A stretch of 64,000 bases of DNA. Source: Membranipora membranacea (lineage: Eukaryota; Bryozoa; Gymnolaemata; Cheilostomatida; Membraniporidae). The notes beneath the pieces were generated by a model. That model was given only the letters and a program-made list of their open reading frames with translations. It made no database searches and had not been told where the DNA came from. The stretch's first letter is position 1, and every line of letters begins with the position of its first letter. The DNA is taken from NCBI GenBank assembly GCA_914767715.1, contig OU612072.1, forward strand, positions 11,346,001 through 11,410,000, in the 5' to 3' direction. Below are positions 18,423 through 55,422 of this stretch, piece by piece. The position numbers and the translations under genes were made by a program.

Positions 18423-21273
18423 TCACGCGGTCACAGTTATGGGTTTTTGTGGTTCTACGACTCCCATGTATGTATATGTGATTTGAGTTGATGATGGTTG
18501 GCGAAATAAGTGATATATAGTTTTTAAAAAGGTGATGTATGGCACTTTACTCCGGATACTGCAGAGCTTCATTTATGGCAGTTTTCTCAATAGTCTGAGG
18601 GATAGAAAAAACAAAGCAAACATAAGAAAAGTCAAATACAAAAAAAAACAGAAAAAGCAAGTCCCTCAAGGCACTGCAACTAAGTCAATTAACAATTATC
18701 AAAATTATCCAATTATCAACCACCTTCGGCCTGAAAATGGTTGATAATGGAATTCTATTAGCAGAAATCCCAGCACAATTTGAGCCAATATTGGTTATTT
18801 ACGTACCTGATGCTTGATTTGAGTCTCTTGTGAGTCCATCCTCAGCTGTTCCCCTACGCCGGCATGACGTGCACCAAATTCTAAGATCTGTTATAACTGT
18901 AAAATAAAACAACGCTGCTAGTGTATTTGATGAACGTGACTGGACCTTTGGCAATGTCAATGGGTCACCTACCAACATTTTTGTTTTAACAAGGCCTGTT
19001 TTAACTTTGTCTAAGTGATCAGACGGCGCCAAAGCAAGTTTGTGGCATTACATTATCAACCACCCATTGCCACTGGGTGGTTGATAATGCAAATGCAAAA
19101 CAGTTGATGGTTGTGGATCGTGCAAAACATTGTCAATTTTGGGATATTAAACAGGGTTAAGAGTAAAGCTCATGCACTGAATTGGATTGGAGAAGGAAAC
19201 ATATCTACCTGCGTCTCTAGCACGGGAGAAGGATCCATACTGCTTCACTTTCCTTCTGATACACAATACCAGTATGACCACTACTATCATTGACAGCACA
19301 ATCCACATTGAGTCAGAACTAGCCATGTACCTCTCGAGCTTTTTGAGATTTTTAGGTGGGTCTGTAGTAGATGGTCCGAATGCACTGCTGCACATTCTCA
19401 AGTCATAATCTTCAAATGAGCAATTTTAAATGGTTGGTTCATTTGGTTACAAGATGCGGTGATAATGAAAATATGCTTACGGCACACAGTTACCTGTTAC
19501 AGCAATCACGTTTGAATATTTCCCATTAACTTGTAAGCCGGCAAAAGGATTGTATATTATCAGGCGAGGTGTGTCACGATATGCGGAGAATAACAGCAAA
19601 ATTGGTCTGGTATGTACCATGTGCTGTAAGATTAGCCCTGTTCACACGGCCGTGTGAACAGGGCTACTGTAAGATACTTACCTGGGCAAGCTCTTTTGCA
19701 ATCATATTTCATATGAGGTTTGTCGTGGCAGATCCAATAGCATGGCATCCACTCATTATCAATCTCATCCAGATAGCATAGGCCAGCATAAATAATGTTG
19801 TTGAGTGGACCAAGTTTTTGGCATTGTATTACAGTCACTCGCTTACCACATGGGAGTGCTGTAGATGTATCACAATTAGCTGACGTCCAGATCAGCTCTA
19901 TCACTACCAGCAAAACCAAAGATCTACATTAGAAAGAGAGAAATCTAAATGGGCACAGAAACTGCACTGAGCAAGAGGCTTTGTGAATCGGGTTTGCAAG
20001 ATGACGCCTTTCTGCCACCAGAGACATAGCAGGTTGTGGCTGTTGATGACTTTAATAATACGGATTGTACCTTTATTGTACATTGTAAATAACATTGGAT
20101 GTTGTTTGCTAAATGGATACTACTAGCAAAGATTATTTTTTAAAGGTTGATTAAAATCCGATGTCTTATCACTCGCCCATCCCGAGGCATGGGCGGCGAA
20201 ATATTATTGCCTTATTGGCGAGGCCGCAATATCTGCGCCAATTTTCTCTCTGTTTGCAGGCAGGTCGGAGCACACCTGGGGGACCAACCAATCCCCAGTA
20301 GAAGATGGACTGCAGAGGGATTCGAACCCACTCTAACCAACTGAGCCACCTCCTATAAATGCTACTAGGACCTGCTATTTCTACCCTGACGTAGATGGAT
20401 GACAAAGACCACTGAACAGACTGATACAATATGTGACCTTGAGATGTGACCTTGAGCTGAGCACATATCTACTGACATAAATGGTGAGAGCCGCCAAACT
20501 AACATTATGCCAAGCCATTGTGAAAGAAAATAGCAATCTTTCACTACCTGTTTATTTATTGTTCCCACAAGGCTTTCACACTGGCTCAAAAACACATTAG
20601 CTCGCATAATAATCTGACACTGACAACATGTGTTCTTTCCTAAACGTATAAACACTATGTTGAGAAGAGGGGATTTGAAGTGTTTTGAAAATAAGATAGA
20701 GCTGACAATTATATTCCCACATCCACAGCTGCACTTATGGCTGGTGCACATTGTCCCAGACGACCATCCCAGAAAGCCATCCCTGTCAATGTGAACATGA
20801 AAACGACACAATCCCAGACTGTCTGGATCCGTCTGGGACAGTATCGGGAGAGTTCGTAAGCGTCAAACTTTCCCGATGCTGTCCCAGACAAACCCAGACT
20901 CATTTTACATCTGGGTGCTATGTGTACCAAACATTGATGATCTGGGACGATCTGGGACGATCTGGGAGGATCTGGGACATTCTGGGATGATCTGGGACAA
21001 TCTTAAACAATGTAAACATTATCCCAGCACTATCCCAGACAAAAACCTAATTGCTAGTCTGGGATGAGTTTCATAATGTGAACATAAGACTTGTACCATC
21101 TGGGATAAGCATCTGGGATGGCATCCCAATGACATCTGGGACAACGTGAACCACCCTCTGATCAGACTGTTAAGTACTAATATAGTTTGAATGACCCTCA
21201 ATGAGCAATTCACCATACAAACTCTGAAACTATGAACACACTCCAGTCTATTCACTTACCTCCTCATATCCAT
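18423..21273 (-). CDS. Receptor A: small cysteine-rich type I membrane protein (BCMA/TACI-like spacing)
   Basis: Exons (minus): 21260-21273, 19682-19923, 19209-19409, 18807-18896, 18423-18454. The total is 579 nt, or 192 aa. The first exon carries only 14 coding nt (MDMR plus two bases). Exon 2 supplies the signal peptide core (SLVLLVVIELIW) and most of the ectodomain, whose cysteines include CYWIC-x9-CKRAC. Exon 3 gives the last ectodomain cysteine, a membrane span (MWIVLSMIVVVILVLCI) and RRKVKQYGSFSRARDA. Exon 4 encodes a basic segment with TAED. The last exon (EPQKPITVTA) uses an acceptor shifted 3 nt relative to B and C and is the least certain. Spacing of the second half of the ectodomain resembles the TNF-receptor module of BCMA/TACI, but I cannot prove homology. 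It lies tail-to-tail with Rh1. Confidence 0.62.
18711..18751. repeat. Foldback repeat, 'ATTATCAACCA' family
   Basis: CAATTATCAACCACC faces GGTTGATAATGG across a short loop, in intron 4 of receptor A. TTTGAGCC follows 30 nt on, as in other family members. Confidence 0.6.
19051..19090. repeat. Foldback repeat, 'ATTATCAACCA' family
   Basis: CATTATCAACCACCCA and TGGGTGGTTGATAATG form a perfect 16-nt stem with an 8-nt loop, in intron 3 of receptor A. Confidence 0.7.
19633..19668. repeat. Perfect palindrome
   Basis: TAGCCCTGTTCACACGG is followed directly by its reverse complement, with no loop. It lies in intron 2 of receptor A, just downstream of exon 2. Confidence 0.8.
20330..20372 (-). repeat. 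tRNA-like fragment with fused A and B boxes
   Basis: On the minus strand GGTGGCTCAGTTGGTTAGAG (consensus A box) runs straight into TGGGTTCGAATCCC (consensus B box). The anticodon arm that should separate them by about 30 nt is missing. Such a deletion rules out a functional tRNA. Downstream sequence to about 20150 is probably the body of a tRNA-derived SINE, in intron 1 of receptor A. Confidence 0.6.
20740..21155. mobile_element. MITE with TGGGA-dense interior, copy 1
   Basis: This is a ~415-bp element in intron 1 of receptor A. Ends are GGCTGGTGCACATTGTCCCA on the left and TGGGACAACGTGAACCACC on the right, an imperfect ~20-bp terminal inverted repeat. The interior is packed with TCTGGGA/TCCCAGA motifs, including a short tandem run at 20940-20998. 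A second, inverted copy lies at 54779-55153. No transposase is present. Open frames across it are low-complexity shadows. Confidence 0.75.
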
Positions 21274-22300: not shown

Positions 22301-25300
22301 CTACGGCATCAGCGTTATTTTAGCTTCTACTGTAATGACAATGAAGAAGTCAGATGCACTGTTACAAGTGTTGTTGACAAAACTAGTTAGAGAGATAAAT
22401 AGTTATGGTTTAATTTCATTTCGTTTCAAAATACGTATTGAGTGCTCAAATGGCAAGTTTAACATGTAATTGGTCAAAACAATCAATCAATGGTTCTGTA
22501 ATCACTATTTCTCTGGTAACGTAACATAAGTATATGAGGTATAGAGGGAAGTTATCAAAACAAGTAAGTTTAACATAATAAAAATTCATAAGGAGAGCAA
22601 AATAATGCATATGTAATATATACATACATAATATGATATTTATGATACAATTTTAAGCCAGCTGAGAAATTTGATAAGGTGCAAACTTGATAAATGAACA
22701 GCTAACAGTGAACAGTAAAATATTAAAGTCAAGCAATTTAACCTTTTCACACGGCTGCATTTTGTTTTTAGGGTACCCACCAAAACAAAGAAGTGGCCGT
22801 GTTACAAGGCTACAAGCAACTAGTAAAGAAAGCCTCCCATAGCTGGAGCGGTACTAGTTGGCTATTTTAGAAATGGTTTGCTCTGTGCAAAGTTTTTAAT
22901 TCCAAAATTGAGTTTTGTCTCATAATCTGCATTAGGAGTTGATCTCCAAAACTCTTGGCTGACCTGGTCTCACCATTGACATGACCAGTGATGAAAGCAG
23001 CTTTGAATGTGTAAGAGATCAATTGAAATCTAGTAGTGTAATAACAGAACTGATGTATGGCACTAAGCTTCAGGTACCATAGTCTAAGCCCCCCAGACTT
23101 TTGCCACCCCCCCTTGGCTGTCCCCCGTACCACAGTTATATAGTCCATGTTTATTCTGGAGAAGAATAAGTCCTTAGGACTTGTACCCAGAAAACAGAAA
23201 AATTGATCAAAATATGGTGTAGAATTGAAAAGACATGTAACTAAAAATCAAGAACAATGACAGGTAAAATTACAAAGTACACGCAGGCATTAATTAGCAG
23301 TAAAACATTACACAAGTTAATACACAATAGCTAGGAAAAAAAAATAGAACAATGTAGCAGTAGGCTAAAATGAAATGATAAGAACTGACTCATTAATTGA
23401 GAAGTTTGAGGACGTGGCTCCGAGTGGCATTTTTGAATGTAGCAAGGGATTGACTCAGCTTAACATGATTGGGTAATTCGTTAAACTTCTGAGCACCGAA
23501 ATTAGCTAAAGCAAATCTGAAATTTTCCTTGGATAGTCTAAACCCAGAACTTTTAGCAAGCCGAGTTTCACTAGCTAATTTCTCGGGGAGCAGATTGGTA
23601 TCAATTATTGGGACTAAACTATTAACAATTTTATAAAACGTCAGCAGACACAAATATTCGAAACGCAAAGTTAACACAGGGATGTTCTTTATTTCTGGTA
23701 GTTTTCTCAGTTCTCTGAGGGATAAAGAAAGCAAAGTAATATGATATTGTAGTGTATTCAACTTACATGAGATATGCTGAGGTGTCCAGTATTGGTACAA
23801 CTCCTTTGTCTTCTCTCATTCTCTTCTCCCCTCTATGCCAGCGTCATTATTAATGCCTCTCTCCTGCGCATTCCCGGATGTAGCCTGAGTTCTTATGCAG
23901 CACTCTTATCTGTCTTTCCCTATTTACTACCTGCAGTCTATTATACCTTGCACTACATCCTCCTCTCTTTCTATATTGTTATTGATAGTCTTTGTTGTGG
24001 GTAATATAACCGATACCGAAGTCCTGGTAGTAGAAATCTATATAGTGTATAAGTGTTCCTGTCTAATATCCCTTAGACCTTGATTCTAGTATTCTTCTTA
24101 TTTGTATATCCTTCCTGGCTAATACTATGCACTGTTTTATCCTTCCTGGCTAATACTACGCACTCTTCTTTCCTTCCTGGCTAATACTACGCACTCTCTC
24201 TCAGGTCCCTAACTGACCTGTTCCCTTACTATCTATTCCATTCCTGTCTAATACTCCTTCTGCTATTCCTCCCTCTCAACGCAAATGATTCTAGTACCAC
24301 ACATAATCAGGGTTTTTGACCTTCTTAGCGTTTCTTGTACTTGGTGGCCTAGGGGCACTTGGCTGGATGTTTCGTTCTGTCTCTATTCTCCCTTGATCTC
24401 GGTTGTCGTCCTCATCTGCTGGACTCTCCTCACCCCCTTCTATGTCATCCTTCGGCAATATTCGTAAATGTTTCCTAGTCCTTCTCACAAGTCTTTTGTC
24501 TGTCTCAATCCAATAGCTATCGGGCTCTTCGGCCTTGTATTTCACAATGCCTCTCTTGCCTTTGTCTGCGTGACTAATTTTAACCCATACTGTCTGACCC
24601 TCTTGTAAATCTGCGAAATCTGAAGCTCTCCTCGATTTGTCAAAGTTCCTCTTCTGTCTCTCCTTTAAAGTAGTGTCTCGTTTTCTAAAGCTCTCAGTAT
24701 CACATGTCTTCTGATGCTGGATAGGTAATTCGTTTCGCATTCTCCTGCCTAATAGAAGCTCGTCTGGTCTGCAGCTGCTCTCTAGTGGGGTGGTACGATA
24801 TGCCATCAGGGCCTTATTCTTATCTTCTTCCTTATTCCAAAGTCCTTTAATAGTCTCCACACTCCTCTCTGCCAGACCGTTAGCCTCATGATGATGTGGG
24901 CTACTAGTAACATGGATCACGCTGTATTCTTCCATCAAATCTCTCCACTCTTTAGAAACATAACAAGGGCCATTATCCGTCCTTATCCTATCTGGGGCTC
25001 CATACCTCGCAATAACTGGTCTGAACTTCTTGGCCAATTCCGCCCCTGTTTGTCCACTCATCCCTACAACTTCAATCCACCGGGAGTAGTAGTCAACAAA
25101 CAAAGCATAAACCTTCCCTCTAAACTCAAACAAATCCGAAGCTACGTGACTCCACGGAGCTTCTGGCAGCTCCGTTTGGTGTAATGGAAGATTCCTCATT
25201 CGTCTAAATTTAATACATTTCGGGCATTCTTCTACCATCTCAATGATCTCCTTTCTTATAGACGGCCACCACACCGAGTCTTGACTCCTGCGATACGTTT

Positions 25301-28300
25301 TTACCATACCCTGGTGACCGGAATGTAAGCGCAGCAGCATGTTCTCGCGCATTGCTGTAGGAATGTACAGTCTGGAGTTCATCACAATTAGACCGTCTTT
25401 CTCACTCAGAAGATCCATGTTGCCCTTCACCTTCTTCAGCTCTCCCTTTACTGTTCTTGGCCACCCCTCTTTCATAGCCTTCAAAATCACCTGATAATCG
25501 CCATCTACTTTGGCATGTCTCTTTATCTCTTCCACCAACGCATCTCCTTCCGCAGATATCAAAGTCCTAATGTGCATTTCCACCCTTGCTATCCTAGCTA
25601 CTTCTTGTTCGGTCGGTGGCCTTGAGAGTAAATCTGCAATAAACATTTTACTCCCAGGTGTATGGAAAATTTTATAGTCATATCTCATAAGTCTCATCTT
25701 AAATCGTTGAATCCTCAGCGGCAACTCTGATAAATCCTTAGACCCAAGCAGAGGAATCAATGGCTTGTGGTCTGTCTCTACTTCAAAATGTCTTCCAACT
25801 AGATAAAAGTCGAATTTTTCACATGCCCATGTGATCGCCAGGGCTTCCTTCTCAATTTGACCATATCTCTTTTCAGCATCTGTGAGCTTCCTAGAGGCGT
25901 AAGCCACTGGTTTCAATTCTCCATCTCCCTGATCCTGTAACAGCGCTGCCCCCAGAGAGTGACAACTTGCGTCAGCTGTTACCCTGTGACTTTTATTGTA
26001 GTCAAACAAAGCCAACAACGAAGAAGATGTAATCAGCTCCTTAACCTTATCAAAACTCCTCTGATGTATCTCTAGCCATATCCAATCATTCTTTTTCCTG
26101 TCTAATTCTCTCAGAGGCACCTCAACTTCTGATATGAGAGGGCTGAATCTACCCAAGTAGTTCACCATAGCTAAAAATCTCTGCAACCCCTTCCTATCAG
26201 TCGGTGCCGGCATCTCGCGGATGGCCCTCTCCTTCTCCGGGTCAACCCCTATACCTTTCTTAGTCAGTATGTGCCCCAGGAATTTCACTTCCTGAACTCC
26301 GAATACACACTTCTCTTTGTTTAATGTCATCCCCGCTTCTTCGACTTTCTTCAGAACTTCCGCTAATCTTGCATCATGCTCCTCCTTGCTCTTTCCAACA
26401 ACCAAAATGTCGTCCATCATACACACCACTCCTGTTAGTCCCTCTAATATTTTGTTCATTTGCCTCTGGAAAAATTCCGGTGCAGCCGAAATTCCAAACG
26501 GCATTTTCAGGTACTGATAACGACCAAAAGGTGTTATAAAAGTGGTATACTCTCGTGACTCCTCCGCCAAATCAATCTGCCAGAATCCTGAGTTTGCATC
26601 CATCTTGCTAAAGTATCGACTGCCTTCTAACGATGCAAGGGTGTCTTCCAGATGGGGTAATGGATATGTCTCCCTCATCACACTCTTATTCAGTTGGGTC
26701 AGATCAACGCATATTCTGACCTTTCCATTAGATTTAGGTGCTACCACCATGCCAGAACACCAAGAAGTTGGCTTCTCTACCTTCTCTATAACACCCAACT
26801 CCTCCATCCTTTCTAACTCATCTTTTGTGGCCTTTCTCAATCCTATAGGTAATCTTCGTGGGACGTTCAAGCACAACGGATTTGCGCCCTCCTTGATTTT
26901 TATCTTGAACACATCAGGCAATACTCCCAATTTACCGAATAACTTGGGATGTTTCAACTCTACCTCCTCGCTAATGCCCCTTATTGTCTTCACCAATTTG
27001 AACTTCCGAATCTCTGGCTTTCCTAGTAAATTGTTACGTGCCCCTTCTAGGATGTACGCTTTACCTCTTACTTCCTGACCCCATACAGAGATAAGGGGAA
27101 GGTAAGCCTTGAAGTGAATCTCTAATTTACTCCCATCTGCTCCTCTAAAATCCCTTCGAGTCGGGCGCATATCTAATCCTAGCCTCTGCGCCGTCTCCTT
27201 GTTGATAACTGTCACATCCGCTCCCGTATCCACAATGAATTTAACCATCTTCTTAGAAGATCTCAGCTTGATTTCAAATTCATTGTCTTTCTTCCTTCCT
27301 AGTCATAACGATTCATCGCTGGAGTATCCTGCTACAGCATTTATCTCCCCTTTTCCTGTTTCTCTGCCTGCAAACTTGTTCGGACAGAATTTAGCTATGT
27401 GCGAAGGCTCTCCACACACGTAACATTTTGGGGCCTCCCTTTGACCACTCTTTTCTCCTTTCTCATTCCTCACCTTATCCGCACACGATCTGTAATCATG
27501 ACCCCCGTAGCGTCCGCATGTCCAACAACCCCGGCCTCTGCCCCGGCCTCTGCTACCTCCACGATCTCTGAATCCTGAACTTAAATTACTTGCTCCAACC
27601 CTGTCTATATCTGCTTGCTCTTTACCAACTGTTGAGTTCTCCTGACTAACTTCAACTAGGTCAATTTCTGAAACAGGCTTAGATTCTCCTGACTTGATAA
27701 TTTTGGCTGCAGCCTGGGCTGATTCATATCTACTGCACATGTTTTTCACCTTGTCTAAAGTTAACTCCTTTTTCAACAGCAGATCACCTCTTATCTTATC
27801 TACATGCATTCCTTTGATGACAATGAGGGTGTTCATCTCTTCTTCCAATCCGCCCCATCTGCATGTACTGCCACTCCTTTCTACCCTTTCTATATACTTG
27901 TCTAATCTCTCATCTCTCCTCTGCTCCATGCACAAGAACCTGTGTCTGGTCGCAACTATGTTTTCTCTGCTTGCAAAATGGTTGTCAAACGCCACTTTCA
28001 GTTGCTCATATTGCATGGCATCCACATCACCATCCCATGTCTCAAAGATGTTCATACCATACTCCCCCATGCTATCTAGCAGTAATGCCGCTTTTCTCTG
28101 CTCTCTTTCAAACTTCTCTACTTGACTATCTTCTGCCTTTCTCCTGGACCTAATTCCACCACTGTCCTTGGATCTCAACCCTGCACCAATCACAGCTATT
28201 TCAAAACGTCTGATAAACTTCCTCCAACATTCCAACTCAGCACCATTCTCCATGCTAAACACTGGAGTCTTAACACTCCTTCCAAATTTATTGTCCATGT

Positions 28301-31300
28301 TTGTAACGTGATCAATGTCGGTTATTGATTCAAAGACCTCTCTATTCCTCTCTCTCAAATATGGCCTCCTCTGCCACTCATTAGATCAAAACCTTCACTA
28401 ATACTCTCTAGTTTACTCCTGACACCATGTAGTGTATTCAACTTACATGAGATATGCTGAGGTGTCCAGTATTGGTACAACTCCTTTGTCTTCTCTCATT
28501 CTCTTCTCCCCTCTATGCCAGCGTCATTATTAATGCCTCTCTCCTGCGCATTCCCGGATGTAGCCTGAGTTCTTATGCAGCACTCTTATCTGTCTTTCCC
28601 TATTTACTACCTGCAGTCTATTATACCTTGCACTACAGATATTAGTTACTACCAATAAATCAAGTCTGCCAACAAAACGGAAATTGGAAACATGTTGTTG
28701 ATACTCCAGCTAAATGAATTCACTCTCTAAATATGATATCATGTGATCATTGTGACAAGAAATAGCTTTATACCAGCACAATGACTAATATGCATAAGTT
28801 AGTCACGGCTCACTCACCTGCGACTTGATGGGCGACCGCCGTGAGCGCCTCCTCACCTGTTCCTCTTCGCGAACGTGACATGCACCAAATTCGAATATCA
28901 GTGGTAACTGTGAAATACAACTATTATGTTTTGCTCTATTTTCATGATGAATTTGACTGAACACCTTGCAAAGTCGACTACCACAGTATATGTTTGTTTT
29001 TAACAGGCCATATTGTCACACACTGCGTGTTTTCTAATCTTGCTCAGTGACTGCTACAGGAATAAAACTGTGACATGTTCAGCTTCCCTAAACACACTCC
29101 TCTGATTCTATTATCTGCAAAATTGCTGGTACCAGCTTGACTGAAGCTTGTAAAAAATGCCTAATATCTGTGATGGCAAATATACAGTTGAATTGTAATA
29201 CCCTGCAGCGGAATGCTCCGTTGCTGATGGCATTGTACAAGTATACCCAATGACACAACTACAAAGGAAACAATCAAAATTCCAGCTGCTCGTTGAGTCA
29301 CTCAGTGCAGATAAAGCTGGGTCATATTCTGAAAAGTGGTACACGCAAGGCAGCAATGATGCTGTCTCAATAATTTTAATACAGGGAAATTTTCAATGGT
29401 CTCATCGTTTAAATATTAATAAAGACACATTCACAACATCTTAATACTTCATAATATAGCCAAATTGTTGTGATGTATATATTTCTACTTGCTAAATATG
29501 TCGCAGAAGTATGACCTATGTACTAATTTTCATATGCTGATATCAGCAATTGATTGTGAAAATATGGGCAACCACATTTGACCATCCATACATTGACAAA
29601 AAGGCACTCTGCAGGCTAAAATGGGCCATAATCTTAAAGCCCACACTGTTAAGATGTAAAATACATACTCAAAAGACAACAAAGGACACTCCTGTCAAGG
29701 TAGGTAGCTCTAACTCAGTACACTGTTTAATATCATAAATTGTCCGAGCCTGTCCGAGCCAATGATTAGTAATTGTCATTTATTGACTCGCTACAAAAGA
29801 TGTTAGCATCCCCTTTGTTCAAGTGCGGGCACCAGTTTTGTTTATTTTACTGAATGAATTTATTATCTTATTGATATTCCAGTTAGAGTCATTACCAGTA
29901 TTAGTTTATAAATTGTAAAGGATAAATTTTAACACCCATGAATTATATTGGTTCATTGAAAATTTACATAACCTGCAAATAAAACTTCTTGCTCATTGCC
30001 AGTTTAGCGGAAACTATAATAGGTAAATATTCTGTGTTATTTCTTCTTTTATTCTATCATGCCTCCTAAGAGACTGTTAAACACAGTAAAAGCCAAACGC
30101 CATCGAAAGTACAGAGCTGATGCAAGCCCGAACACCAAAGCTAGATGGAATGCTGAGAGATCAGAGAGAAGGAGGCAGCAGAAGGCAAGAGCTGCAGATT
30201 GCCTTGTAAATAATGATGTGGAGAAGGATAAAAGAGAGAAACATGCCCAAGCCCAAGCAAGTTATATTGCCAAAAAAAAGGCCTCTGCAAGTGCTTCATC
30301 TGAAATTCTTAATGTCCAAGATCCTTTTGTTGATAATGCTGTCTATGCAAGCCCAAACAGTAAGGCTGAGTGCATAATCAAACAGGTTGATAGTGCTACC
30401 CCTCAAACTTCTGGCCTGCTGTCTGCTAGCGGCATTGAAAAGGGTCGTCAACGTACTGCTGATAAAGCTATTGTTTCAGCTGCAACTGAAGCCGTCAGTA
30501 ATGATAAATATGTAAGGAAATCACTGTTCAACAATCTCAAATCATCAAATAAGAAAGCTGTCTCTGAAACACTTAAATCATCGCGAAACATTTTTTACAG
30601 AATCAGCAATAAAGGTTCACACCCAAAACTTTCTGAAGACATCATACTTGCTGTGGTGAATTTTTACCAAGGCTCAGACATCGTTACAACATGCCCCTAC
30701 AAAACAAGAAATGGTAAAACCCTGCGTATAATGAAGTATACCACACAACGCTCATACTCACAGTTTAAAGAGCAGCACCCACATATCTATGTAAGCCAGT
30801 CTACCTTCAACCAGCTGAAACCTGCAGGGATCAAACTCGTGAAGGCCGCCCAATGGGTACAGTGTGTCTGCGATATTTGCGAGAATATTGCATCAGTTAT
30901 ACGTGGAATGATAGCATCTATGCGGCAGACCAACCACACAGTACCAGATATGCTGTTTGGAAAGTTGTAGGACCTAGTAAAGCAGACAGTCTGCAACATG
31001 AACAGCCATCACTGCCTTCAGAGAAAGTGTGGCATCTGTAAGCCAGAAATGGTTCATTACATGTTTGCAGCTTGGTTGGGAGACGATGACGGGGGAAAAG
31101 TATCATGTTTCAGATGGGGCAACGGTGTAGAGGACAACGGGCAAACGTCTAGACACATGAGGAAGTACCCCCAGACATACAGAGGGTGGCAGGCGTATGA
31201 TGAACTTCTGCAAATGCTCTCATCATACCTATATCATCTATATAACGCTGTCAACCAGCTGTCAGCCTACAAGAAATGTAAAAATTCACTGCGAGGGAAC

Positions 31301-34300: not shown

Positions 34301-37300
34301 TCCAAATTTTTATCAAAGTAAAATTTGAGTTGCCCCTTGCGTGTAATTTTCAAAAGGATCGGATGAGATGTAATTTTGCTGCCGGAAAATCATAATATAA
34401 CAGTATCCCGGCAGCAGGTAAGAAAAATGAAATTTGGAGTTTAGATTCTTTTTATGCACGTCCAGTTGACCCTGGTGTGCAATTTTCGATAGCATCGGAT
34501 GATATTTAATTTTGCTGCTGGAAGATAATTATATAACAGTATCCCGGCAGCAGGTAAGAAAAATCAAATTTGGAGTCCAGATTCTTATTTTGCACGCCCA
34601 GTTGACCCTGGTGTGCTATTTTTGACAAGATCGGAGATGATTTTTTTATGCTGCCACGTTAGGTCGGCAGCGAGCCATGAAAATATTTTTTGATTTCATA
34701 ATCTTGTTGAACAGGCTTTTTTGACCCAGGGGTGTAAATTTCAAAAGGATCGGGGGAACTTTATTTTCCAAACATTTTTCTCTAGAGTGTACCACTTTTG
34801 AGAATATGACCCAGCTATGTTTCCACTCTCAAAACGATGTTGATTTTGTCAGACACACCCTAATTTCTTTTGATAATTGACGAGGTGTAATCAAACATCT
34901 CAGACGACTTGCAATTGTAGAAAATAACATAATACATACCTGCTTCCTTAGCACGAGAGAAGGAGCCATACTGTTTCACTTTTCTTCTGGTATACACTCC
35001 CAACAGACTCCCCAATATTATCAATACTACCGGCAGCGCAAACCAACCTATGTATAAACGAGATATGTGTTTCTCAAATGTTCTGCGTTTATCCCTGCTA
35101 TCTTGCTCATCGGCTTTTAGATTTGCATATACTGGATCAAAAGTTGGTAATGGCCGATACGGTGTAGTGGGTGTTGGGCATGGTCTTTGATCCCAGCCTT
35201 AAAAACAAACAGAGCAGAGTTTCAAAGATTGTAGATGGTGATGAAGTTCTGCCTCAACAAACATCCAGGATGGTTAAAAAATTGATTCGCATACACTGGT
35301 TGGAAGGTACTCTGTATTGTGATATCCGTTGTAGCCGGCTTGGTGTGCCTACTGCCCAGTATATAATAACGGAGAAGAACACCTTGATATAAACATCACA
35401 CATTCATCATCGGAATCGAGCTATTGATCACACGTCTCTCTGACAATTCAAAAGGTTGCGGTTGGATGCTTACTCATCGATAACTATTTTTGGATAATCA
35501 AAGATACTAATAAACAAGGGTACAGCCGGATTACTATTCCAGATAAACGGCATACCCGAAACCTGAGCATATTCGATTTAGTTACATAGCAAAGAGCAAC
35601 AGGGGTAACTCCTTAGAATTAGGTTTATTCAAAAAAAGTGCTAGGACTAGGAAGCACCAGTAATTAAGCGCCATCAGTTGAAGAGGGGTATCTCCATATC
35701 CAAGCAAGTAAACACATATCTTGCCGGCGGCTTTCCTGGGCAATAAGCCTTGCAGACTTCATGTTTGGATTCTTTGATACAGATCCCATAGCATGGTCTG
35801 TACTGTGCAAAATTCTCAAGGTAGTAGCATATGTTCAGATCTATTCCATCTTGACCCAAACATCCACAGTCATATGTAGTCAATTGATTGCCACATGGCA
35901 GTGCTGTAGGTAAAGTTGGATTAGCTGACTTCAGATTTTGCTTCAGGAATATTATAACCAGCAATACCAGAAAGCTATGTAAGAAAGAGAAACATATGTT
36001 AGGGGTACACCGCAACAGCTCTGAGGGTTTGTGAAATAGAGTAGTTCTCAAATTGAAATGTCACGGCTTCCACACTGGAAAAAAAGTTAGATTCTATTGG
36101 GAAAATATGAATGGCCGAACAAGGCCAATATGTAACAAAGTCATGAGCGAAGAGACTTATATCTCAGAGTCGGTTTGCTAGCAGTGTGACAACTCGGTCA
36201 AGCGGCTCTTCGTGAAGTGTTACAAGCAGTCGGCTGTGGCATTACGGAACCTTTGAAACAACCAAATAGAAGAAATGCATCCCTAAAGCCTAACCATGCA
36301 TAAATAGCCATGTGCCTGGCATGCCAGATATGCCTCCTAATCCTTGAATATACATAAGCAATTATCAGCGATAACAGCTGATTGCATTTGCCAGTGGACA
36401 AGGGAACAAATAGTGTATAGGTGTTGACTCAGACTAACATACATTCACTACTCCTTAGTTTATTCCGTTGCTGTTAATTACATCTTACTATCAACCACAC
36501 AAGTCACTACATCAATGATCAGAACAAAATGGATGGACGTGGAAACATGGCACATGAGGTGTTGTGATACCTAAGTTTATCAGACCCTAAGTACATCCCA
36601 ACTGCCACCATGGACGGGCAAAATCTCGAAGTATCCTCAAATGCTAAGTTGCTAGGCATCACAGTTGATCAGAGGATAACTTTCTCTGACCACATTGATG
36701 ACTTATGTGACCGCCTAGCTAGCCGTCTATATGGCATGAGAGAACTGAAAAGACTAGGGCTGAACGCATAAGGCCTCAGACTATACTACACAGCCAACAT
36801 TCGGTCCGTGCTCACTTATGCATGCCCAATGTGGGGTTCACATATTACCAAGCGGTCTCTGGAGAAGGTGATACAGGTAGAAAGGCGAGCGCTGAAAGTC
36901 ATCAACAGTGATATGCACCATGATGATGTTGTACGCCATTATCAGCTGCCGTACATCACAGAGTTTATAGCTCACCTGTCACATAACGCCATGTCCAATA
37001 GGGACACCCACTCAACAAGCTGATAATAAGGAAGAGTGGGCGACAGACTCGGATGTCACTCGCCACCCAGATGCCCCGCTGTCGGACTGAAAAGCTACGA
37101 AATTTTTCGTATATTTTTTAGTACTGCTGTGTATTTTATATTTTACTGCTGTGTATTTTACTGACTTAATTTTTGTTTCTAGTGGAATTCACTCCGGTAC
37201 ATCACACTGTTGATTTTAGGAGGAACAAAAATACGAACATAACATAACATACAGGACATTAGGCAACTGTGGCAACTGTGACAACTGTGACAACTGTGAC

Positions 37301-40330: not shown

Positions 40331-40623
40331 ACAACTAGTCCGTCAATTTTAAGGTCGTGTGTCAATGGAAAGTAAGATGACAACTCCGATTTCTGCCTTA
40401 CCATTCGGAAAAATGTGTATGTTTTGTTACAGTGTTATGTTGACTTAAACTTTCTGGTTTTATATTACCTACCGTAAGCATCCCATTAATTTCAAATTTG
40501 TTTGGTATTGGCATTTGTCTCCTTTGTCGAACATTATACTCGTCTCGCATTCTTTAAAGCATTTTCAACATTAATGCGTAACCTATTAGTATTTTTGTGT
40601 ACATATCTTTGATTAGATTTAGC

Positions 40624-42178: not shown

Positions 42179-42254
42179 CAAGTTAGTGCCATTACATTAT
42201 CGACCACTCATTTCCATTTTCATGAGTGGTTGATAATGTAGTGACACTAACTTG
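42179..42254. repeat. Foldback repeat, 'ATTATCAACCA' family
   Basis: CAAGTTAGTGCCATTACATT...GACCACTCA pairs with TGAGTGGTTGATAATG...GACACTAACTTG, giving a ~32-bp near-perfect stem. It lies in Rh2 intron 7. Confidence 0.75.
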
Positions 42255-42434
42255 AATTGGAGCCGTATAATATTTACTCTACCAGGGTTTTTGTTTACAC
42301 GGCTTGAAAACTCAGTAAAAAAAAAAATTTGAAATAACCAGTCTCTCTCCAACGACTGAATAAATAATAATAGAGTATAATCTAAATTGGATGCTCTCTG
42401 AGCAAGAGTCTGTATATAAATGTCGAGGGTGTAG

Positions 42435-42500
42435 ATCATTTCTTCACAGCCTGGGGCTAGCTCGGCAATCCTCAGGTTCGATACTTGGCAGTAGCAAGTC
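42435..42500 (+). repeat. Degenerate tRNA-like (SINE) sequence in Rh2 intron 7
   Basis: GCCTGGGGCTAGCTCGG (A-box-like) and CAGGTTCGATACTTGG (B-box-like) are spaced only ~15 nt apart. The eroded counterpart in Rh1 intron 7 is at about 16105-16155 (ACCTAGGGGTTAGGCTGG ... CAGATTCATTTCTTGG). The unit therefore predates the Rh duplication. Confidence 0.45.
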
Positions 42501-43893: not shown

Positions 43894-45276
43894 GGAGTTG
43901 TGATCTACTTCACTTATAGCATTTACATTTCTTATGTTTCCACCAAATTTACAGCTAACAACACAGTGCGATGATAGGTTGTGTATTGCTAATGTTCAAT
44001 CGAATTTGAGGCGGAAAATAATATTCACCGTGACAACAATGCAAGGGTATGTGTAGATTATGAATTTCACAGTTTTTCTAACTTGCGGTTATTTCTGTAA
44101 TACTTTTTTCTTCTTTTTTTATGCAAGTTCCGAAACTCTCAGGCACTAAAGTTTTTTTTATCTTTGTATAAGGAAATAATATTACAAGTAAATAAATATT
44201 GGCACAAAATAGGGTTGTGCATGTTCGGATCTTAACATGCCTGGAATCAAGGTCGCTGTGTGATTTCTAGCCTGGTGAAATGTCGAAAGGAGTAGGAATT
44301 CCCAAACAAAGGCCAGAAAAAAAAGGGTTTGACAATGAGAAAATCTAACACAAGGCATTATTCTGGTAATCCATAAGCGCTTTTATACATTAAAACAATC
44401 AAAGATAATTATACTGCAAATCACTAAGGTATTACCCAATAGACTTTCTCATCTGGTATCCCCTCGCCCATCCCCCCCCCCCCCCCTTCTTCTATATCTG
44501 ATATCTAACACAGCGCAAACTTTGCTCAGCCAATATTATTTCGCAACTCTATTTTCATCAGCCAACAAAAACCCAAACTACCCAAAGCTCTAACTTACAT
44601 ACATGACAACAACGCATGTGTACCTAGTACTTGGGTGCACTTATGAAGGAATTCTTTCAAGCTTAGTCTTCCAAAACAAATAAAGAGGGAATAAACCCTA
44701 AAAAATCCATAGGGACTTCACAAAGCTTTGAATTGAACTTGAATAAAGGTCAGGGTTAACTTACATTAGGGTCCTGAATTGTTAATGGCATCGTGGGCAT
44801 TTGGATAGAGGCAATAGAATTGTAGCTTTCAATACAAAACATGTATCACTGCAAGGAGCACATGCTCGGTAGGGATGAATTGTAATGTATAGTTAATTGA
44901 TCTGTCTGCTGTTGTGGGAGTTGCATTCCCCCATTACGTGAGGAGACAACTCATGTCAACAAGCAAAATCTAGGGTAGGAGATAAGAGGTTAAGGATTAA
45001 ACATGAGGTGTGAAACCAACAAGATTTCTGTCGCATTGTGATGTCATGATTTTGATGGCATCAGTGTTTTTTTAGCTTCTACTGTAATGATAATGAAGTC
45101 AGATGCATCGCTACAAGTGTGTTGACAAAACAAGAAGTGCAAATAGTTGTAATTCAGTTTCATTAGGAAATATATATTGAGTGTTCAAACGATAAGTTTT
45201 ACTTGCCCCCTATAATTGGTAAAAAAGCGGAAACCAATGGTTCTGTTCATCTTAGTACATTGTACAAAATGTATAA
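43894..45276. other. Rh2 3' flank and receptor C 3' end with shared block copy C
   Basis: An AATAAA at 44191-44196 could end an Rh2 transcript. The block 44390-44960 is homologous to 17770-18400 and 21800-22165 (shared GGGAGTTGCATTCCCCCATTA and GAGGAGACAACTCATG). Receptor C's last exon is at 45044-45081. A poly-C run (about 18 C) lies at 44470-44487. Confidence 0.55.
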
Positions 45277-48200: not shown

Positions 48201-51200
48201 AACACACAGCTGGATTTTGATCAGGTGCATGCTGTGACTAGCGCGTCTTGCATAACATTTCTTTCCGGCACAGATTTGTTGACGCCACAAATGATGACAA
48301 GTCCATGAAGATTTTAGAGTCATATATCACTAATGGTTTTCCTACGAAGCGGAGCTCTTGTGTAGAACCCCTAAAGCCATTTTGGAATGTAGGCACCAGC
48401 TAACCTGTCACGATGGTTTGATTCTCAGAAGTAATCAGATTGTGGTTCCGACGGACATGAGAAAAACCATTCTTGCTGACATGCATAAGGGCCATCTGGG
48501 TATTAGCAAGTGCATAGAAATAGCAAAGACTGCTGTTTACTGGCCAGGATATCTCAGCATGTTGACAGATTTGATAAGCAGCTGTGAAATTTGCTAACTC
48601 AGGCGAATACATTGAACCCTACCCTGTGCCTGATTATCCCATGCAGACTAATCATATGGATGTTTTCTATCTTGATGGTATTGAATACCTGGCTACAGTC
48701 GACCGCTACTCGAAATGGCCAACATGCTACATGCTTCGTACATCCTCATCACGTGAAATTATCACCTTGCTAGAGAGACAGTTTTTGGATTTTTGGCGGC
48801 AATCTAAACACAGTGCTGTCCTGTCTTAGGTCTACCCCTCTAGGCAATGGTCTGCCGTCACCATCAGTTCTGCTACAAGGCAGAAATTTTCGAGACAATT
48901 TACACTGTACGTCCAACCAGCTCAAAACCCAGCAGCTGGATTTAAAGAAAATTCAGGCTGCAATGGATAATGTTGTTTCAGAGTCACACTCCCAACAACA
49001 AGATAAATTTCCGAGCCAGAGATTTGTGGAGGGCATGACAGTGTGGGTGAAAACCGGTCATAGAAAATGGGAGAAAGCTAGGATTTTAGGTCATGCTGAT
49101 ACGCCCAGAAGTTTTCATGTAGAGATGCTGGAAAATGGTAAAGTTTACAGACAAAATCAATCGTACCTGAAAGTGTACAGGGATAATGGCAGCTTACATG
49201 ATCAGCCTGCTTGCCCTACTCCAGTTACATCATTACCCGCCCTATCCCATGAGCAAAGTGCATCGGCTGGGCATAGTGCGCCACCCCTGGTACCTGTTCA
49301 AGTGCCGTCTGGTTCACCTGATCCACCATCTGGCACGGGTCTCAGAACGAGTACACGAAGTACACAGCCAGTTAAGAGATGGGGGTATGTTAGTGGTTTC
49401 AAACCTGTGGAATAGTCTCACTGCCGAAAGTATCATACAGTATTTTATTATTAGTTCTGATTTGGTGGTGGGTGTTTTATAATTTCATGAATTTATGTAT
49501 TTATGTTTTTGTTTTCAACTTGAATTTGTTTAGCAGTATCTCCGTTGGATCTAACGACTTGTTTTTGTAAAAGAGATGTTATATTGTGTGACATAACAAC
49601 TGTCAAGCTGTCAACACTGAGGCGGCAGCAGTCTCTGTTTATATTTTATCACAGAGTAAGGATAAACAGAGGGGACACTTCAATGATCGTTATAGTGCCT
49701 GCGGGTTTTTGAGCTACTGGGGGAAAATCATCATCTGGCCACCTGCCAATTTTCAAGAAATATATAAGCTAATAAGGGATTTTCTCATACATACATGCCT
49801 ACCTTTGTTGGGCCATCAGTCTTTCTGTGTTCATCCCAAAGACTGATTTCCAACTTTTTTGAAATGTCCAACTTTCAAGCTATACACCATATTGTTGTCA
49901 TTTTTTGCTAGGATACATAGGCTATGATTTATATGGGTTTTTAAAATGAGTTATATCATAAAGATTAACAAGCGGCTTGGGTCAGTACACGGACATTTCC
50001 TAATTTTGATGACCAGCCATCCATCAATTGTCACATGTAAATCTATATGGAAAGTCTTTGGGATAAATACAGAATGAATTATGACCTATCAAAGGTAGGT
50101 ATGTCTGCCTAAAACCTCATATTGTAACTTATATAATTATTGAAATTTGCAGGTGGCCAGATTGATGATTTTCCCCCAGTGGATCAAAACCGCAGGCACT
50201 ATAACGATCATTGAAGTGTCCCCTCTGTTTATCCTTACTCTGTGATTTTATACTGCCTGTTAGATTCAGTCTTTGCTAGACCTTTGTATAGCTATCAAGC
50301 ATACTTTATTACACGCAATAGAAATCTAGAATAATGTAACCTGAAACACAAACTCGTTACTTCTGTACCCCTAACACAGATAGGGGTACACATTATAACA
50401 AGGTACAAAATTACAGTACAGGGATAATATCAAATGAACAATAAAAAGGATAACTGCTAATAATGGATTTTAATTTAGACGGGCAGGTAGAAGATGCCAA
50501 ACCGTATTGAATATGGATTGATGTTTTTCCAAGAAGTTATCTTGTAGCGTTTATCATTTCCAGACATATTTCGCAACCTCTCTATAATCTAGCTGCGTAA
50601 TACCAGTGATGTATGGCACCCAGCTTCAGGAACTGCAGTGCTTCATTAATGGCAGTTTTCTCAATAGTCTGAGGGATAGAGAAAGCAAAGCAAATATAAA
50701 AAACATAAATATAAGCTATTGTTTATGTGAGTGCTCGGGTGATGGCATGGGTTTTATATAACTTCTGCTTTGTTCTCATTTCTGCTCTAAGTGGTGTTCA
50801 ATGATCAACTACCTTCTTTTAGTTAAATATATTATGGAATGCAATCATCAGCATATTGGGTACTTGAATCCACATCGACATCAAGACCACACCATTAGCT
50901 TGCGTATCTCCGATCATTAGAGTTAATTTCACATGAGGACCTTACATGTGCCCGCCCCTAATTTATCAAATTTACATCAGGTCTTCACACATTCGATGCC
51001 AGTGATGGTCCTTATTATATCACGTGATCATTGGGTGCTGAACTAGCTTTAGCCCAGCAAATTGACGCCTAGATGAAACCAAGGAGTAACAGCTGTTAAC
51101 CTTGATGAAACTGGTTTAAAATAAATAAAACATGACACATAAGTAATAGATATATTGGTTATTCACCTACCTGATGCTTGATCGGTGTCTGTTGTGAGCC

Positions 51201-54200
51201 CCTCCTCAACTGTTCCTCTTCGCCAACGTGATGTGCACCAACTTGTTAAATCTTTGGTAACTGAAAAACATAATCATTATGTTTGGCTAAAAATAGTTTT
51301 GATGAATGGGACTGAACTCCTGGGAAAGTCAATTACCACAATTACTCATGTTTTAAACGGGCCATATCAACAAGAGTAATCCTTACTCGATGATAATGAT
51401 ATCATCACAGAATGTCATTATCTAGTCGGATTGAATAATTGCTAAAAAATGGAAATCATCAGTCAATCTTCAACCTTGTCAGTTTTTCTAAACCCTGTTT
51501 ACAAACATCCAACTGGTCTGCCACTACCAACTAGAAAACTTGAAACCTACAGGCTCGACTTCAAATGTGAAATCAATTGCAGGTGGTAATGAAAGCTGCT
51601 TGAAGTGAAGAAAGGAAAATGCAAAAGCTTTGAATTCTAAGTCAATAACAAATTTTATATAAACATGTTTCCCATTATAAAGCAGTATTGATTTTTGAAC
51701 CGAAAGACGCAATACCTAAGCAATTCGGAGTTGTCTTCCCTTATATCAGTGGTAACTTTGAAACACAACAATTATGTTTTGCTCTCTATATTGATAGGAT
51801 GAATTTGACTGGACACCGGGGTAAGTTGACCACCACAATACACGCTTGTTTCAAACAGGCCGTATCATCACACACTGCAGTTTTCTGATCTTGATCAACT
51901 ATTGCTACGGGAGTTAAATTGTGATATATTCAGTTTCTTTAATCCCTGTTTAAAAACATCCCTCTGATTTTATGATCTGCAATACTGCTGGTACCAAGCT
52001 GACTGACGTCTGAAACCAACAGCCTATTGTTTCAATGTGATGGTTATCATAGGCAGTAGTGAAAGCTGCCTGAAGTGAACCCTAATATTCAGAAAAACTA
52101 GCATGGACAATGCTAAATATTCAAGTCAAGTCTAAGCCCTGTCCTGTCCTTAGTGTTTGAAAATAAATGTCAGATCAATTATTGTTTCCTGATGTAGCAA
52201 GTGCACAGCGACTAAAAGAGGGTATCTGGTAGTCTAAGCCCCCCTCCCAGACCCTTCCCCCCCCCTGCTTGACGGGGCCCCCTGGCTATGTTTGTTAAAC
52301 AAAATCTACTCTCTGTGATGACATACATACAGGTGTATTGTAATAAGCCGAAGCGGAATGTTCCGTTGCTGCCGGCATTGTATAATTATGCCCAACACCT
52401 CAACAACCAATGAACAGTCAGAATTCCAGCTGCTCATCGAGTTACTCAGTGGAGATATGATATGAATGATATGAATATGATATGATACTCTCTGCTCTCA
52501 AACAATATTGATTATGTAAGAAGAACCCTAATTTCATTTGATAATTGACAAGGTTTAATCAAAAAGCTCAGACGACTTAAAATTGTAGAAAATAACATAA
52601 TATATACCTGCTTCCTTAGCGCGAGAGAAGGAGCCATACTGTTTCACTTTTCTTCTGGTATACACTCCCAGCAGACTCCCCAGTATTAACAATACTATTG
52701 GCAGCGCTAACCACCCGAATTTGGAAAGAGATACGTGTTTTTCAAATGTTCTGCTTTTATCCTTGCTATCTTGCTCATCGGCTTTTAGCTTCGCATATAC
52801 TGGATCAAAAGTTGGTACTGGCCGATATGGTGTAGTGGGTGTTGTGCATGCTCTTTCAACCCAGCCTTAATAACAAACAAAGCACATTTTGAAAGATTGT
52901 AGATTTTGTCAATGATAGGCAGCAAGTTTTGTTCTGGGGGAAACATGACAATAAACGAATCATGATGTGCCTAAAAAAAACATCTGAGTGAGGTTAAAAA
53001 GCTGTTTTGTGTACACTGGTTGGAAGGTACTCTGTATTGTGACATCAGTTGTTTCCGGCTTGGTGTGCACAGTACATAATATAACCAAGGGGTACTTGTA
53101 CCAGTTTAGCATGTTCTATATGGGATGAGAGTTGGTTCGGCAACGATTATCTTTATTGTTAGAAGTTTGTACCAAATTATTTGCCCTCTCATAGCCTAAA
53201 TAATGCGTTACTAGATAGTGATGTATAGTTAGAATATACTGGAACGTGGCTTCACTGAGTAGAGCCATGCTCCGCATAAACATAAATCCGTGATGCTATA
53301 GTTGAACTACATGTTGATCGTTTGCTTAATACACATGTAGAAAGGACTAATGTATAATATATTGGATATGATATTCTGTAGAAATAAAATCAGCTGCAGA
53401 CTTTATCAACTGACTTGATTGCTGCCGGGCTTGAAAGTGGCCTCAGGTTGACCTGATAATAGCTATTTTTAGTCCTGTGCGGGTTTTAAGAACTAGAGAC
53501 CACACAAAGGATAGCGGTAGAAATAAACAAGGTATTACCACAAGGGGTCAAAGGACAGTAAAACAGGATGTAACTGTGTAAATGCTTGCAATAAAAAACT
53601 ATGGCATGAATCAGATCACTGATACTGATACAGTACTCCTTGATATAACCATCACACATTCATCATTTTGGAATCAAGCTATCAAGCTATTGATCACATG
53701 TCTCTCTAACAATTCGAAAGGTTGCGGTTGGATGCTTACTCATTGATAACTATTTGTAGATAATCAAAGATACTAATAAGCAAGGGTACAGCCGGATTAC
53801 TATTCCAGATAAATGGCATACCCGAAGGCCGAAACCTGAGCATATTCGATTTGGTTACATAGCAAAGAGCAACAGGGGTAACTCCTTAGAATAAGTTTGT
53901 TCAAAAAAGTGCGAGGACTAGGAAGCACCAGTAATTAAGCGCCATCAGTTGAAGAGGGGTATCTCCATATCCAGGCAAGTAAACACATATCCTGCAGGCA
54001 GCTTACCGGGGCAATAAGCCTTGCAGACTTCATGTTTGGAATCTTTGATACAGATCCCATAGCATGGTCTGTACTGTGCAAAATTCTCAAGGTAGTAGCA
54101 TATGTTCAGATCTATTCCATCTTGACCCAAACGTCCACAGTCATATGTAGTCAATTGATTGCCACATGGCAGTCCTGTAGGTAGAGTGGGATTAGCTGAC

Positions 54201-55422
54201 GTCAGATTTTGCTTCAGGAATATTATAACCAGCAAAACCAGAGAGCTATGTAAGAAAGAGAACAATCTGTTAGGGCAAACCACGACTGCACTGAGGGTTT
54301 GTGAAATAGAGTAGTTCTTCCGCCTTCCACACTGAAAAAAAGTTAGATTCTGTTGGGAGACGGAAATGGCCGAATAAGGCCACTTTGTAACAAATTCATG
54401 AGCGAAGAGACTTGTATCTCAGAGTCGGTCTGCAAGAAGTGAGACAACTCAGTCAATTTGCTTTATAGAAGTGTAACAAGTAGTCAGCTGTAGCATTACT
54501 GCATTACATTTGCACCAAACAAATAGAAGAAATGCGTTCCTAAAGCCTAATCATGCATAAATAGCCATGTGCCCATAGGCATCTGGAGTTACAAGCATGT
54601 CCAGTATCAACCACCCCCTTTCCCTCTCGGGAAAGGGGGTGGTTGATACTGGACATGCTTGTAACTCCAGATGCCTATGCATGTGCCTGTCAGTTATGCT
54701 CGTCTAATCTTTGAATATAACAGCTGAATGCATTTGCCAGTGAACAAGGATACAAATTGTCTATAGGTGTTGACTGATAGCTGGTTCACATTGTCCCAGA
54801 TGACATTGGGCTGTCATCCCGATGCTTATCCCAGATGGTCCCAGTCTTATGTTCACATTATAAAATTCATCCCAGACAAGCAGTTAGGTTTCTGCCTGGG
54901 ATAGTGCTGGGATGATGTTCACATTGTTTAGGATCGTACCAGATAGTCCAAGATCGACCCAGATCATCCAAATGTCTGGTTCACATAGCACCCAGATGCA
55001 AAATGAGTCTGGGTCCGTCTGGGATAGCATCAGGAAAGTTTGACGCCTACAAACTTTCCAGATACTGTCCCAGACGGACCCAGACAGTCTGGGATTGTGA
55101 CATTTTCATGTTCACATTGACTGGGATGGCTATCTGGGACAATGTGCACCAGCCATAAGACTAACATACTTTCACTACTAATTAGTTTATTCCGTTGCTG
55201 TTAATTGCATCCTACTATCAACCGCACAAGTCACTACATCAATGATCAGAACAAAATGGATGGGCATGGAAACATGGCACGTGAGGTGTTGTGATACAGG
55301 ACATTACTCAATTGTAACAACTGACCACATAATCTGAATTCCGCACTTAAAAAACCATGAAAGAACACCAGTGTGTCAGCAATAGCAAGTATATGTCTAT
55401 ATACTAACCTGCATTTATCCAT
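45044..55422 (-). CDS. Receptor C: small cysteine-rich type I membrane protein (BCMA/TACI-like spacing)
   Basis: Exons (minus): 55409-55422, 54007-54245, 52608-52865, 51171-51260, 45044-45081. The total is 639 nt, or 212 aa, with phases 2, 1, 1, 1. Features are MDKC plus a signal core (SLVLLVIIFL), an ectodomain with CYGIC-x8-CKAYC and one further cysteine in exon 3 (ERACTTPTTP), a span (WLALPIVLLILGSLLGVY), RRKVKQYGSFSRAKEA, the motif TVEE and the tail VEAKKTLMPSKS. It is much closer to B than to A. Unlike B it keeps the exon 2 donor (CCCCG-GTAAGC) and has seven cysteines in exon 2 instead of B's eight. Intron 4 contains gypsy element 2; intron 1 contains a TGGGA-type MITE and a 106-bp hairpin. 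A partial repeat of the exon 4 region (51730-51900) lies in intron 3. Confidence 0.65.
45282..45503 (+). repeat. 5' LTR of gypsy element 2
   Basis: The intact 222-bp LTR is bounded by TGTTATA and TATAACA. Confidence 0.9.
45504..45520 (+). promoter_or_regulatory. Primer binding site of gypsy element 2
   Basis: TGGTGTCAGAACTGTCG starts at the base after the LTR. The leading TGG pairs with a tRNA CCA end. The first eight bases equal those of element 1, but the rest differ, so the tRNA species is not certain. Confidence 0.65.
45563..46330 (+). pseudogene. gag: Gypsy element 2 Gag, frameshifted at the zinc knuckle
   Basis: The open frame starts MMAEGGGLRPPANFF and carries a capsid-like region (WTTWLEQFDFYM, YERYKFNQRVLQPGEKFDTY). 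It ends prematurely at 46298-46300. The first knuckle (CRYCTRTHPRGK) continues in the +1 frame as CPAYGKECHVCKGKGHF, so one extra base, probably in the A run at 46278-46282, breaks gag. A programmed +1 shift is possible but less likely given the other damage in this copy. Confidence 0.8.
46280..49415 (+). pseudogene. pol: Gypsy element 2 Pol, multiply broken
   Basis: In order: protease (LKVDTGAFDNVMP, 46515-46553), RT start (SFRICLDPTELNRCL), a frameshift near 47093-47100, RT core in another frame (LDATSGF, LPFGISS) to about 47280, a 49-nt insertion at about 47280-47329, then RT palm (IFFDDILTQGA), thumb and RNase H (LSVDSSKSGMRAVIM) to 48065. After further shifts come the integrase zinc finger (HKGHLGISKC...CEIC, stop at 48595-48597) and the start of the core (TNHMDVFYLDGIEYLATVD). 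The rest of the DDE core is deleted near 48800-48830, leaving a C-terminal domain (VWVKTGHRKWEKARIL) to 49415. It cannot transpose by itself. Confidence 0.88.
49577..50400 (+). repeat. 3' LTR of gypsy element 2, interrupted
   Basis: LTR halves 49577-49649 and 50252-50400 add up to exactly the 222 bp of the 5' LTR once the insertion and its 7-bp target duplication are removed. Confidence 0.9.
49650..50244. mobile_element. 595-bp long-TIR MITE inside the LTR
   Basis: Ends are CACAGAGTAAGGATAAACAG and its exact complement. Inverted similarity extends about 110 bp inward (AATGATCGTTATAGTGCCTG, CATCTGGCCACCTGC). The target ATTTTAT is duplicated at 49643-49649 and 50245-50251 (7 bp; if the terminal T/A pair belongs to the element, the duplication is 5 bp TTTTA). 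There is no coding capacity. The 5' LTR of the same element is the empty site. Confidence 0.88.
50406..51170 (-). other. Receptor C intron 4, part next to exon 4
   Basis: Intronic. It carries the LINE C-terminal remnant at about 50640-50700 and GATGTATGGCACCCAGC at 50608-50624, both also found in A and B, and a segment (50930-50990) that resembles 1190-1245. Confidence 0.45.
51730..51900 (-). repeat. Partial tandem duplicate of the exon 4 region in receptor C
   Basis: TATCAGTGGTAACTTTGAAA through CACACTGCAGTTTTC matches the sequence next to receptor B's exon 4 (28897-29035) better than it matches C's own exon 4 flank. Only the 5' splice-acceptor end of the exon is included, so it is not a usable exon. 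Confidence 0.5.
54574..54679. mobile_element. 106-bp perfect hairpin element with 8-bp target duplication
   Basis: The arms run from CATAGGCATCTGGAGTTACA inward to CAACCACCCCCTTT, then a 10-nt centre (CCCTCTCGGG), then the exact complement. CATGTGCC is duplicated at 54566-54573 and 54680-54687. The matching place in receptor B (about 36309-36322, CATGTGCCTGGC) is empty. The inner arm ATCAACCACC links it to the 'ATTATCAACCA' foldback family. Confidence 0.88.
54779..55153. mobile_element. MITE with TGGGA-dense interior, copy 2
   Basis: This is an inverted relative of 20740-21155, in receptor C intron 1. Ends are AGCTGGTTCACATTGTCCCA and TGGGACAATGTGCACCAGCC. The paralogous site in receptor B (36425-36440, TTGACTCAGACTAAC) lacks it, so it inserted after the B/C split. 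Confidence 0.78.

Follow-up and report, generated by a model that had tools for sequence, protein, structure and literature searches.

The genes A, B and C are a real tandem family of coding sequences under selection. We consider it likely that they arose by duplication of a single gene, whose product would be a small membrane protein of type I and most likely acts in adhesion or as a receptor at the cell surface. In the 64-kb stretch of bryozoan DNA that holds the family, here called the window, the genes are arranged as Rh1 - A - B - Rh2 (3′ part) - C, with Rh1 and Rh2 being copies of an Rh ammonium transporter gene. No fourth family copy was found within the 64-kb window in translated searches with A, B and C.

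Scripted splicing of five exons per gene, all on the minus strand (Table 1), gave a protein of 184 residues for A and proteins of 202 residues for both B and C, with a protein identity of 82% between B and C and 48% between A and C. The 14-nt first exon and intron phases of 2/1/1/1 are common to all three genes, and GT-AG borders were found at 11 of their 12 introns. The exception is intron 2 of B, which starts with GA. The shared five-exon plan of the original prediction, with its 14-nt start exon and equal phases, thus holds for A, B and C, except that the lost donor of B had been overlooked. A and C look intact. The call of A exon 1 rests only on its start codon, length and phase, and self-comparison revealed no DNA match to B or C around it. 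Reading exon 5 as TIEKTAINEALQ... was rejected because it would call for phase 0 after an exon 4 that ends in phase 1.

The domain order that had been proposed was recovered as well. A signal-peptide-like start and a cysteine-containing ectodomain in exon 2 are followed by a stalk, a single hydrophobic span and a basic tail; the signal peptide and the span were judged by eye. The stalk is rich in Pro and Thr in B and C, as originally described. Judging from these sequence features, the products of A, B and C are probably single-pass membrane proteins.

Table 1. Exons of genes A, B and C and copies of the Rh gene, with positions in the 64-kb window.
Feature	Position	Strand	Observations
Gene A exon 1 (start codon)	21260..21273	-	14 nt; ATG and GT donor; length and phase as in B and C
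Gene A exon 2: putative signal peptide, ectodomain C1-C7, one extra N-terminal cysteine	19682..19923	-	AG/GT borders, phase 1
Gene A exon 3: C8, stalk, putative membrane span, juxtamembrane tail	19209..19409	-	Spliced model
Gene A exon 4: tail	18807..18896	-	63% protein identity to C across the exon
Gene A exon 5: final codons and stop codon	18587..18594	-	Homologous to C, flanks included (self-comparison)
Gene B exon 1	37453..37466	-	Spliced model
Gene B exon 2	35736..35974	-	Followed by GA, not GT
Gene B exon 3	34940..35197	-	Spliced model
Gene B exon 4	28818..28907	-	Spliced model
Gene B exon 5	23707..23714	-	Beyond the Gypsy element in intron 4
Gene C exon 1	55409..55422	-	Spliced model
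Gene C exon 2: putative signal peptide, ectodomain C1-C7	54007..54245	-	Spliced model
Gene C exon 3: C8, Pro/Thr stalk, putative span, juxtamembrane tail	52608..52865	-	Spliced model
Gene C exon 4: tail	51171..51260	-	Spliced model
Gene C exon 5: final codons and stop codon	50661..50668	-	Spliced model
Rh1 ammonium transporter gene, complete, nine exons	9083-17322	+	Pfam PF00909
Rh2 copy, only equivalents of exons 6-9 found	39406-43890 (duplicated region 38779-44465)	+	Self-comparison

Self-comparison of the window revealed how the copies are related. The region of B at 34.8-37.6 kb matched that of C at 52.5-55.6 kb in pieces at 83-94%. Exon 2 is 96% identical between B and C and exon 4 only 77% (78% between A and C in exon 4). 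This contrast makes recent gene conversion between B and C across exons 1-3 likely. The duplication of the Rh gene starts inside Rh1 intron 5; piecewise matches of about 77-81% link the 3′ part of Rh1 (13.7-17.9 kb) to 38.8-44.5 kb. Mutual matches were also seen among short segments near 18.3, 22.1 and 44.9 kb. The Rh transporter copies that had been announced next to the receptors are one complete gene and one copy of which only the equivalents of exons 6-9 turned up. The closest match of the Rh1 protein, in a search that scored the 7989 candidates sharing most words, was found in Watersipora subatra, with an identity of 69% and an E value of 4.8e-194. Of the best 120 of 4651 matches, the 119 that follow it were all at or below 58%, beginning with the second at 58% (E 3.3e-160). 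Judged by this one gene, a bryozoan other than Watersipora is the most likely host.

Several other features accompany these genes. Intron 4 of B holds a Gypsy-type LTR retroelement (23748-28637, minus strand) with open gag and pol frames, and its 210-bp LTRs are 100% identical, which indicates a recent insertion. A second retroelement (45348-50404, plus strand) lies between Rh2 and C; it contains reverse transcriptase and RNase H, its flanking repeats are 98% identical, and its gag gave only a sub-threshold PNMA match. Two long open frames in B intron 3 (30023-31669, plus strand), for which Pfam gave no match, probably belong to a mobile element. A repeat of 360-390 bp, rich in CTGGGA/TCCCAG and MITE-like by eye, is present in intron 1 of A (20767-21153) and of C (54782-55139) in opposite orientation, the two being about 84% identical. 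The neighbouring multi-exon gene at 56380-63700 (minus strand) encodes an LDLa domain (PF00057); inspection by eye further suggests a span of the membrane, CUB-like exons on the extracellular side and GYNRL in the tail. Rfam at gathering thresholds identified no family in the window; a sequence at 5638-5680 (plus strand), below this threshold, resembles the 5′ end of U2 snRNA.

The tail is under purifying selection. Among the three pairwise comparisons, which are not independent, A-C gave a dN/dS of 0.25 for the tail (dN 0.147, dS 0.588) and 0.67 for the ectodomain (dN 0.704, dS 1.045), and A-B gave 0.28 and 0.69, respectively. For the span, A-C gave 1.53 on 16 codons, and the stalk was saturated in this pair. 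With the much younger pair B-C, values of 0.78 (tail) and 0.61 (ectodomain) were obtained, and constraint on the tail is thus not seen in all pairs. Since the A-B tail ratio is still 0.28, the faster change of the tail between B and C is no proof of tail decay in B. The first part of the tail, RRKVKQYGSFSRA, is identical in A, B and C, and the 5 of its 13 codons that differ between A and C all do so silently.

In the ectodomain, the cysteines are what is conserved. The mature part of A exon 2 shares only 41% identity with C. Of the residues aligned between the two ectodomains, A retains every one of the eight cysteines of C but just 19 of the 60 others; at this rate, retention of all eight would have a chance of about 1e-4. 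The gaps between the cysteines of C are 8-12-11-3-8-3-7. The last four cysteines of exon 2 are spaced C-x3-C-x8-C-x3-C in B and C and end in CKAYC, and in A the loop is x9 and the end CKRAC; these are the spacings and the CxxYC end that the original prediction had given. It did not include the four further ectodomain cysteines of C, three before this module and one in exon 3. A and B have nine cysteines each, the extra one being N-terminal in A and located after C2 in B. The C2-C3 gap is x12 in C and x14 in A. A six-frame scan of the 64 kb for C-x3-C-x(6-10)-C-x3-C returned three matches, which are A, B and C. When eight cysteines were placed randomly in 69 residues, exact 3-8-3 spacing occurred in 0.15% of the trials and 3-(6..11)-3 in 0.9%, rates that the true background exceeds because paired-cysteine helices favour C-x3-C. 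The module spacing in A, B and C is more than chance.

These observations suggest how the proteins might work. The ectodomain would be a fast-changing single module of eight conserved, presumably disulfide-bonded cysteines, presented on a stalk, and it may bind a changing partner at the cell surface. The constant tail, in which Pfam detected no domain (death domain included) in A, B or C, would couple this binding to one intracellular machinery. Close to the membrane, the tail contains YGSF (found by eye), which we take to fit the YxxPhi endocytic or sorting motif and which could serve as an endocytic signal.

Database searches with these proteins gave no family assignment. In a collection of 5.8 billion proteins, no homologue was found at E ≤ 10 with C as query or with the A/B/C alignment, among 212 and 2431 candidates scored, respectively; this search needs shared 5-residue words, which may itself explain the missing homologues. 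No Pfam family came near its cut-off in A, B or C, and weak matches to Herpes_UL49_5 (E 0.08), GPR180-TMEM145 (E 0.2) and DUF6514 (E 0.05-0.22) were discarded as far below the cut-offs. PDB sequence and profile searches returned either nothing or only a designed protein and four Pygopus entries (E 0.23-0.37), which we took as noise. They listed no TNF receptor (TNFR), but their sensitivity is low, as TACI is retrieved with BCMA as query only at E 0.14.

To model the ectodomain, AlphaFold was applied to the exon-2 sequences in two runs (C first, A first), leaving out C8, which is coded in exon 3. Mean pLDDT values were 51.2 for C and 58.2 for A, with 10 of the 65 residues of A at 70-90. The low-confidence model of A has three beta strands and one short helix, that of C is all beta, and a helix-loop-helix appeared in neither. 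The models would thus agree with another known beta-rich cysteine fold, e.g., a Ly6/uPAR-like or EGF-like variant, with the C-x3-C-x8-C-x3-C pattern being coincidental. We consider this unlikely: both models are below useful confidence and gave no Foldseek match at E ≤ 1, and EGF and CD59 scored at shuffle level in the profile comparison described below. Moreover, Ly6 proteins carry a CC pair, which is absent from A, B and C. A TNFR chain was not present in the best 50 of 58 and 50 of 115 Foldseek matches, nor in the 50 VIA-align matches listed, and the models are too poor to judge by.

Having lost its exon 2 donor, gene B may be a pseudogene or the source of a short secreted form. If exon 2 is translated beyond its end, the frame stays open for a short distance before a stop and adds one more cysteine. 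An AATAAA lies 107 nt into intron 2 (about 35629), whereas A and C have none in the 400 nt that follow exon 2. Together with the high identity that exon 2 of B still shares with C, this could mean that B alone is a truncated secreted decoy of its neighbours, produced by intron retention and the downstream AATAAA, and not a plain pseudogene. This appears unlikely to us. A nearly identical read-through ORF follows exon 2 of C despite its GT donor, so the extension in B may be chance, and B combines an odd number of cysteines with a Lys that, by eye, occupies position -3 relative to the putative cleavage site of the signal peptide.

The original prediction proposed that A, B and C resemble the TNF receptors BCMA and TACI, and we examined a broader form of this, in which they are divergent single-module TNF receptors of the BCMA/TACI or Grindelwald kind. 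C4-C7 would then form a helix-loop-helix module, C2-x12/14-C3 a beta-hairpin module, and C1-C8 an extra closing disulfide. Trimeric TNF-like ligands would cluster the receptors, and the tail would recruit TRAF through TVEE (C) or TGEE (B), which we take to fit the TRAF-binding motif [PSAT]x[QE]E. On the whole we regard this reading as distinctly unlikely, for reasons that emerge from the spacing, the profiles and the tails.

The spacing agrees in part. The gaps are 12-2-3-8-3 in BCMA and 14-2-3-6-3 in TACI, so the C2-C3 gaps of C and A correspond to those of BCMA (12) and TACI (14), and the C-x3-C...C-x3-C module recurs in both as well as, with a longer loop, in Grindelwald as described in PMC8024323. 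The human BCMA letters used here match PDB chain 4zfo_F along all 54 positions (1-54, E 1.6e-34); those of TACI CRD2 are identical to 1xu1_R over 42 of 43. On the other hand, C departs from the frame 12/14-2-3-6/8-3 by an inter-module gap of 11 instead of 2 and by one extra cysteine before the frame and one after it. The DxL motif at the hairpin tip, described in PMC8024323, is present in the BCMA and the PDB-checked TACI letters. It is absent from the corresponding position before the second module in our proteins, which reads CYYLENFAQYRPC in B and C and CYLDEIDNEWMPC in A.

Profile comparisons weakly suggest a BCMA/TACI-like ectodomain. At the default settings of the tool, the A/B/C profile matched BCMA+TACI+Fn14 with a probability of 17.4% (P 0.0014), against 71% for BCMA with TACI+Fn14 in the same comparison. 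With first-row match columns the score was 22.07 (P 0.00039). None of 200 shuffles of all columns attained it (best 19.2), nor did any of 200 in which only the non-cysteine columns were shuffled (best 21.69), the latter by a thin margin. When 19 single cysteine-rich domains were ranked, BCMA came first (21.86, with 1 of 50 shuffles as high) and TACI second (16.04, 2 of 50). The other 17 scored 11.64 or less, including Fn14 (6.03) and a TNFR1 piece. These top ranks point to a slight similarity that is specific to BCMA and TACI, in a test that was not blind because BCMA had been chosen for its matching spacing. The Pfam models for BCMA, TACI and BAFF-R (PF09257, PF09305 and PF09256) matched none of the three ectodomains at E ≤ 10, a range in which the HMMER filters drop most matches above about 0.1, whereas BCMA and TACI cross-match at 5e-4 to 8e-3. 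PF00020 (TNFR_c6) had no match in any of the three proteins, which is a weak test since BCMA and TACI also lack one.

In the tails, the candidate TRAF-binding motif occurs in B and C, but A has TAED instead. When the tails of B and C were shuffled, 8-12% of the shuffled sequences carried the motif. A TRAF2 transcript has been reported in the bryozoan Fredericella sultana according to the account in PMC7460649, so such an adaptor is present in the phylum. A literature search by title and abstract gave no paper on bryozoan TNF receptors. We take kinship with the human BCMA and TACI receptors as possible, and consider highly unlikely the more elaborate proposal that single-module TNF receptors expanded in tandem in a bryozoan and took on a new layout (A1-like hairpin, C2-like helical pair, long linker, C1-C8 disulfide), with one copy turned into a secreted decoy by donor loss.

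If the tandem duplicates are indeed a family of receptors that combine a fixed tail with a fast-changing cysteine module, they could be a recognition system in a phylum of colonial animals. Should they be related to TNF receptors, single-module receptors of this class, known in arthropods and vertebrates, would be extended to bryozoans. This would bear on whether a single module came first in TNF receptors, as is suggested in PMC6684607.

Compared with known systems, A, B and C share with CRD2 of BCMA (TNFRSF17) and TACI (TNFRSF13B) one small cysteine module, C-x3-C-x6/8-C-x3-C preceded by C-x12/14-C. BCMA and TACI are short single-pass proteins, and BCMA has no signal peptide, whereas one was recognized by eye in A, B and C. 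The bryozoan proteins further differ from both in the x11 linker in place of x2, in having eight or nine cysteines and not six, and in the lack of DxL and of a Pfam match. Fn14 (TNFRSF12A) likewise is short, crosses the membrane once, has one cysteine module and ends in a short tail that carries a TRAF motif, but its profile is not similar to that of A, B and C. Grindelwald of Drosophila differs, as far as a comparison by description goes, in its loop of x11 instead of x8 or x9 and in a C2 module formed by the last four cysteines, after which A, B and C have one more (PMC8024323). In the description given there, it has in common with them eight cysteines, a C-x3-C...C-x3-C module, the absence of DxL and a single pass, and it shows that single-module TNF receptors are nothing new among invertebrates (PMC8024323).
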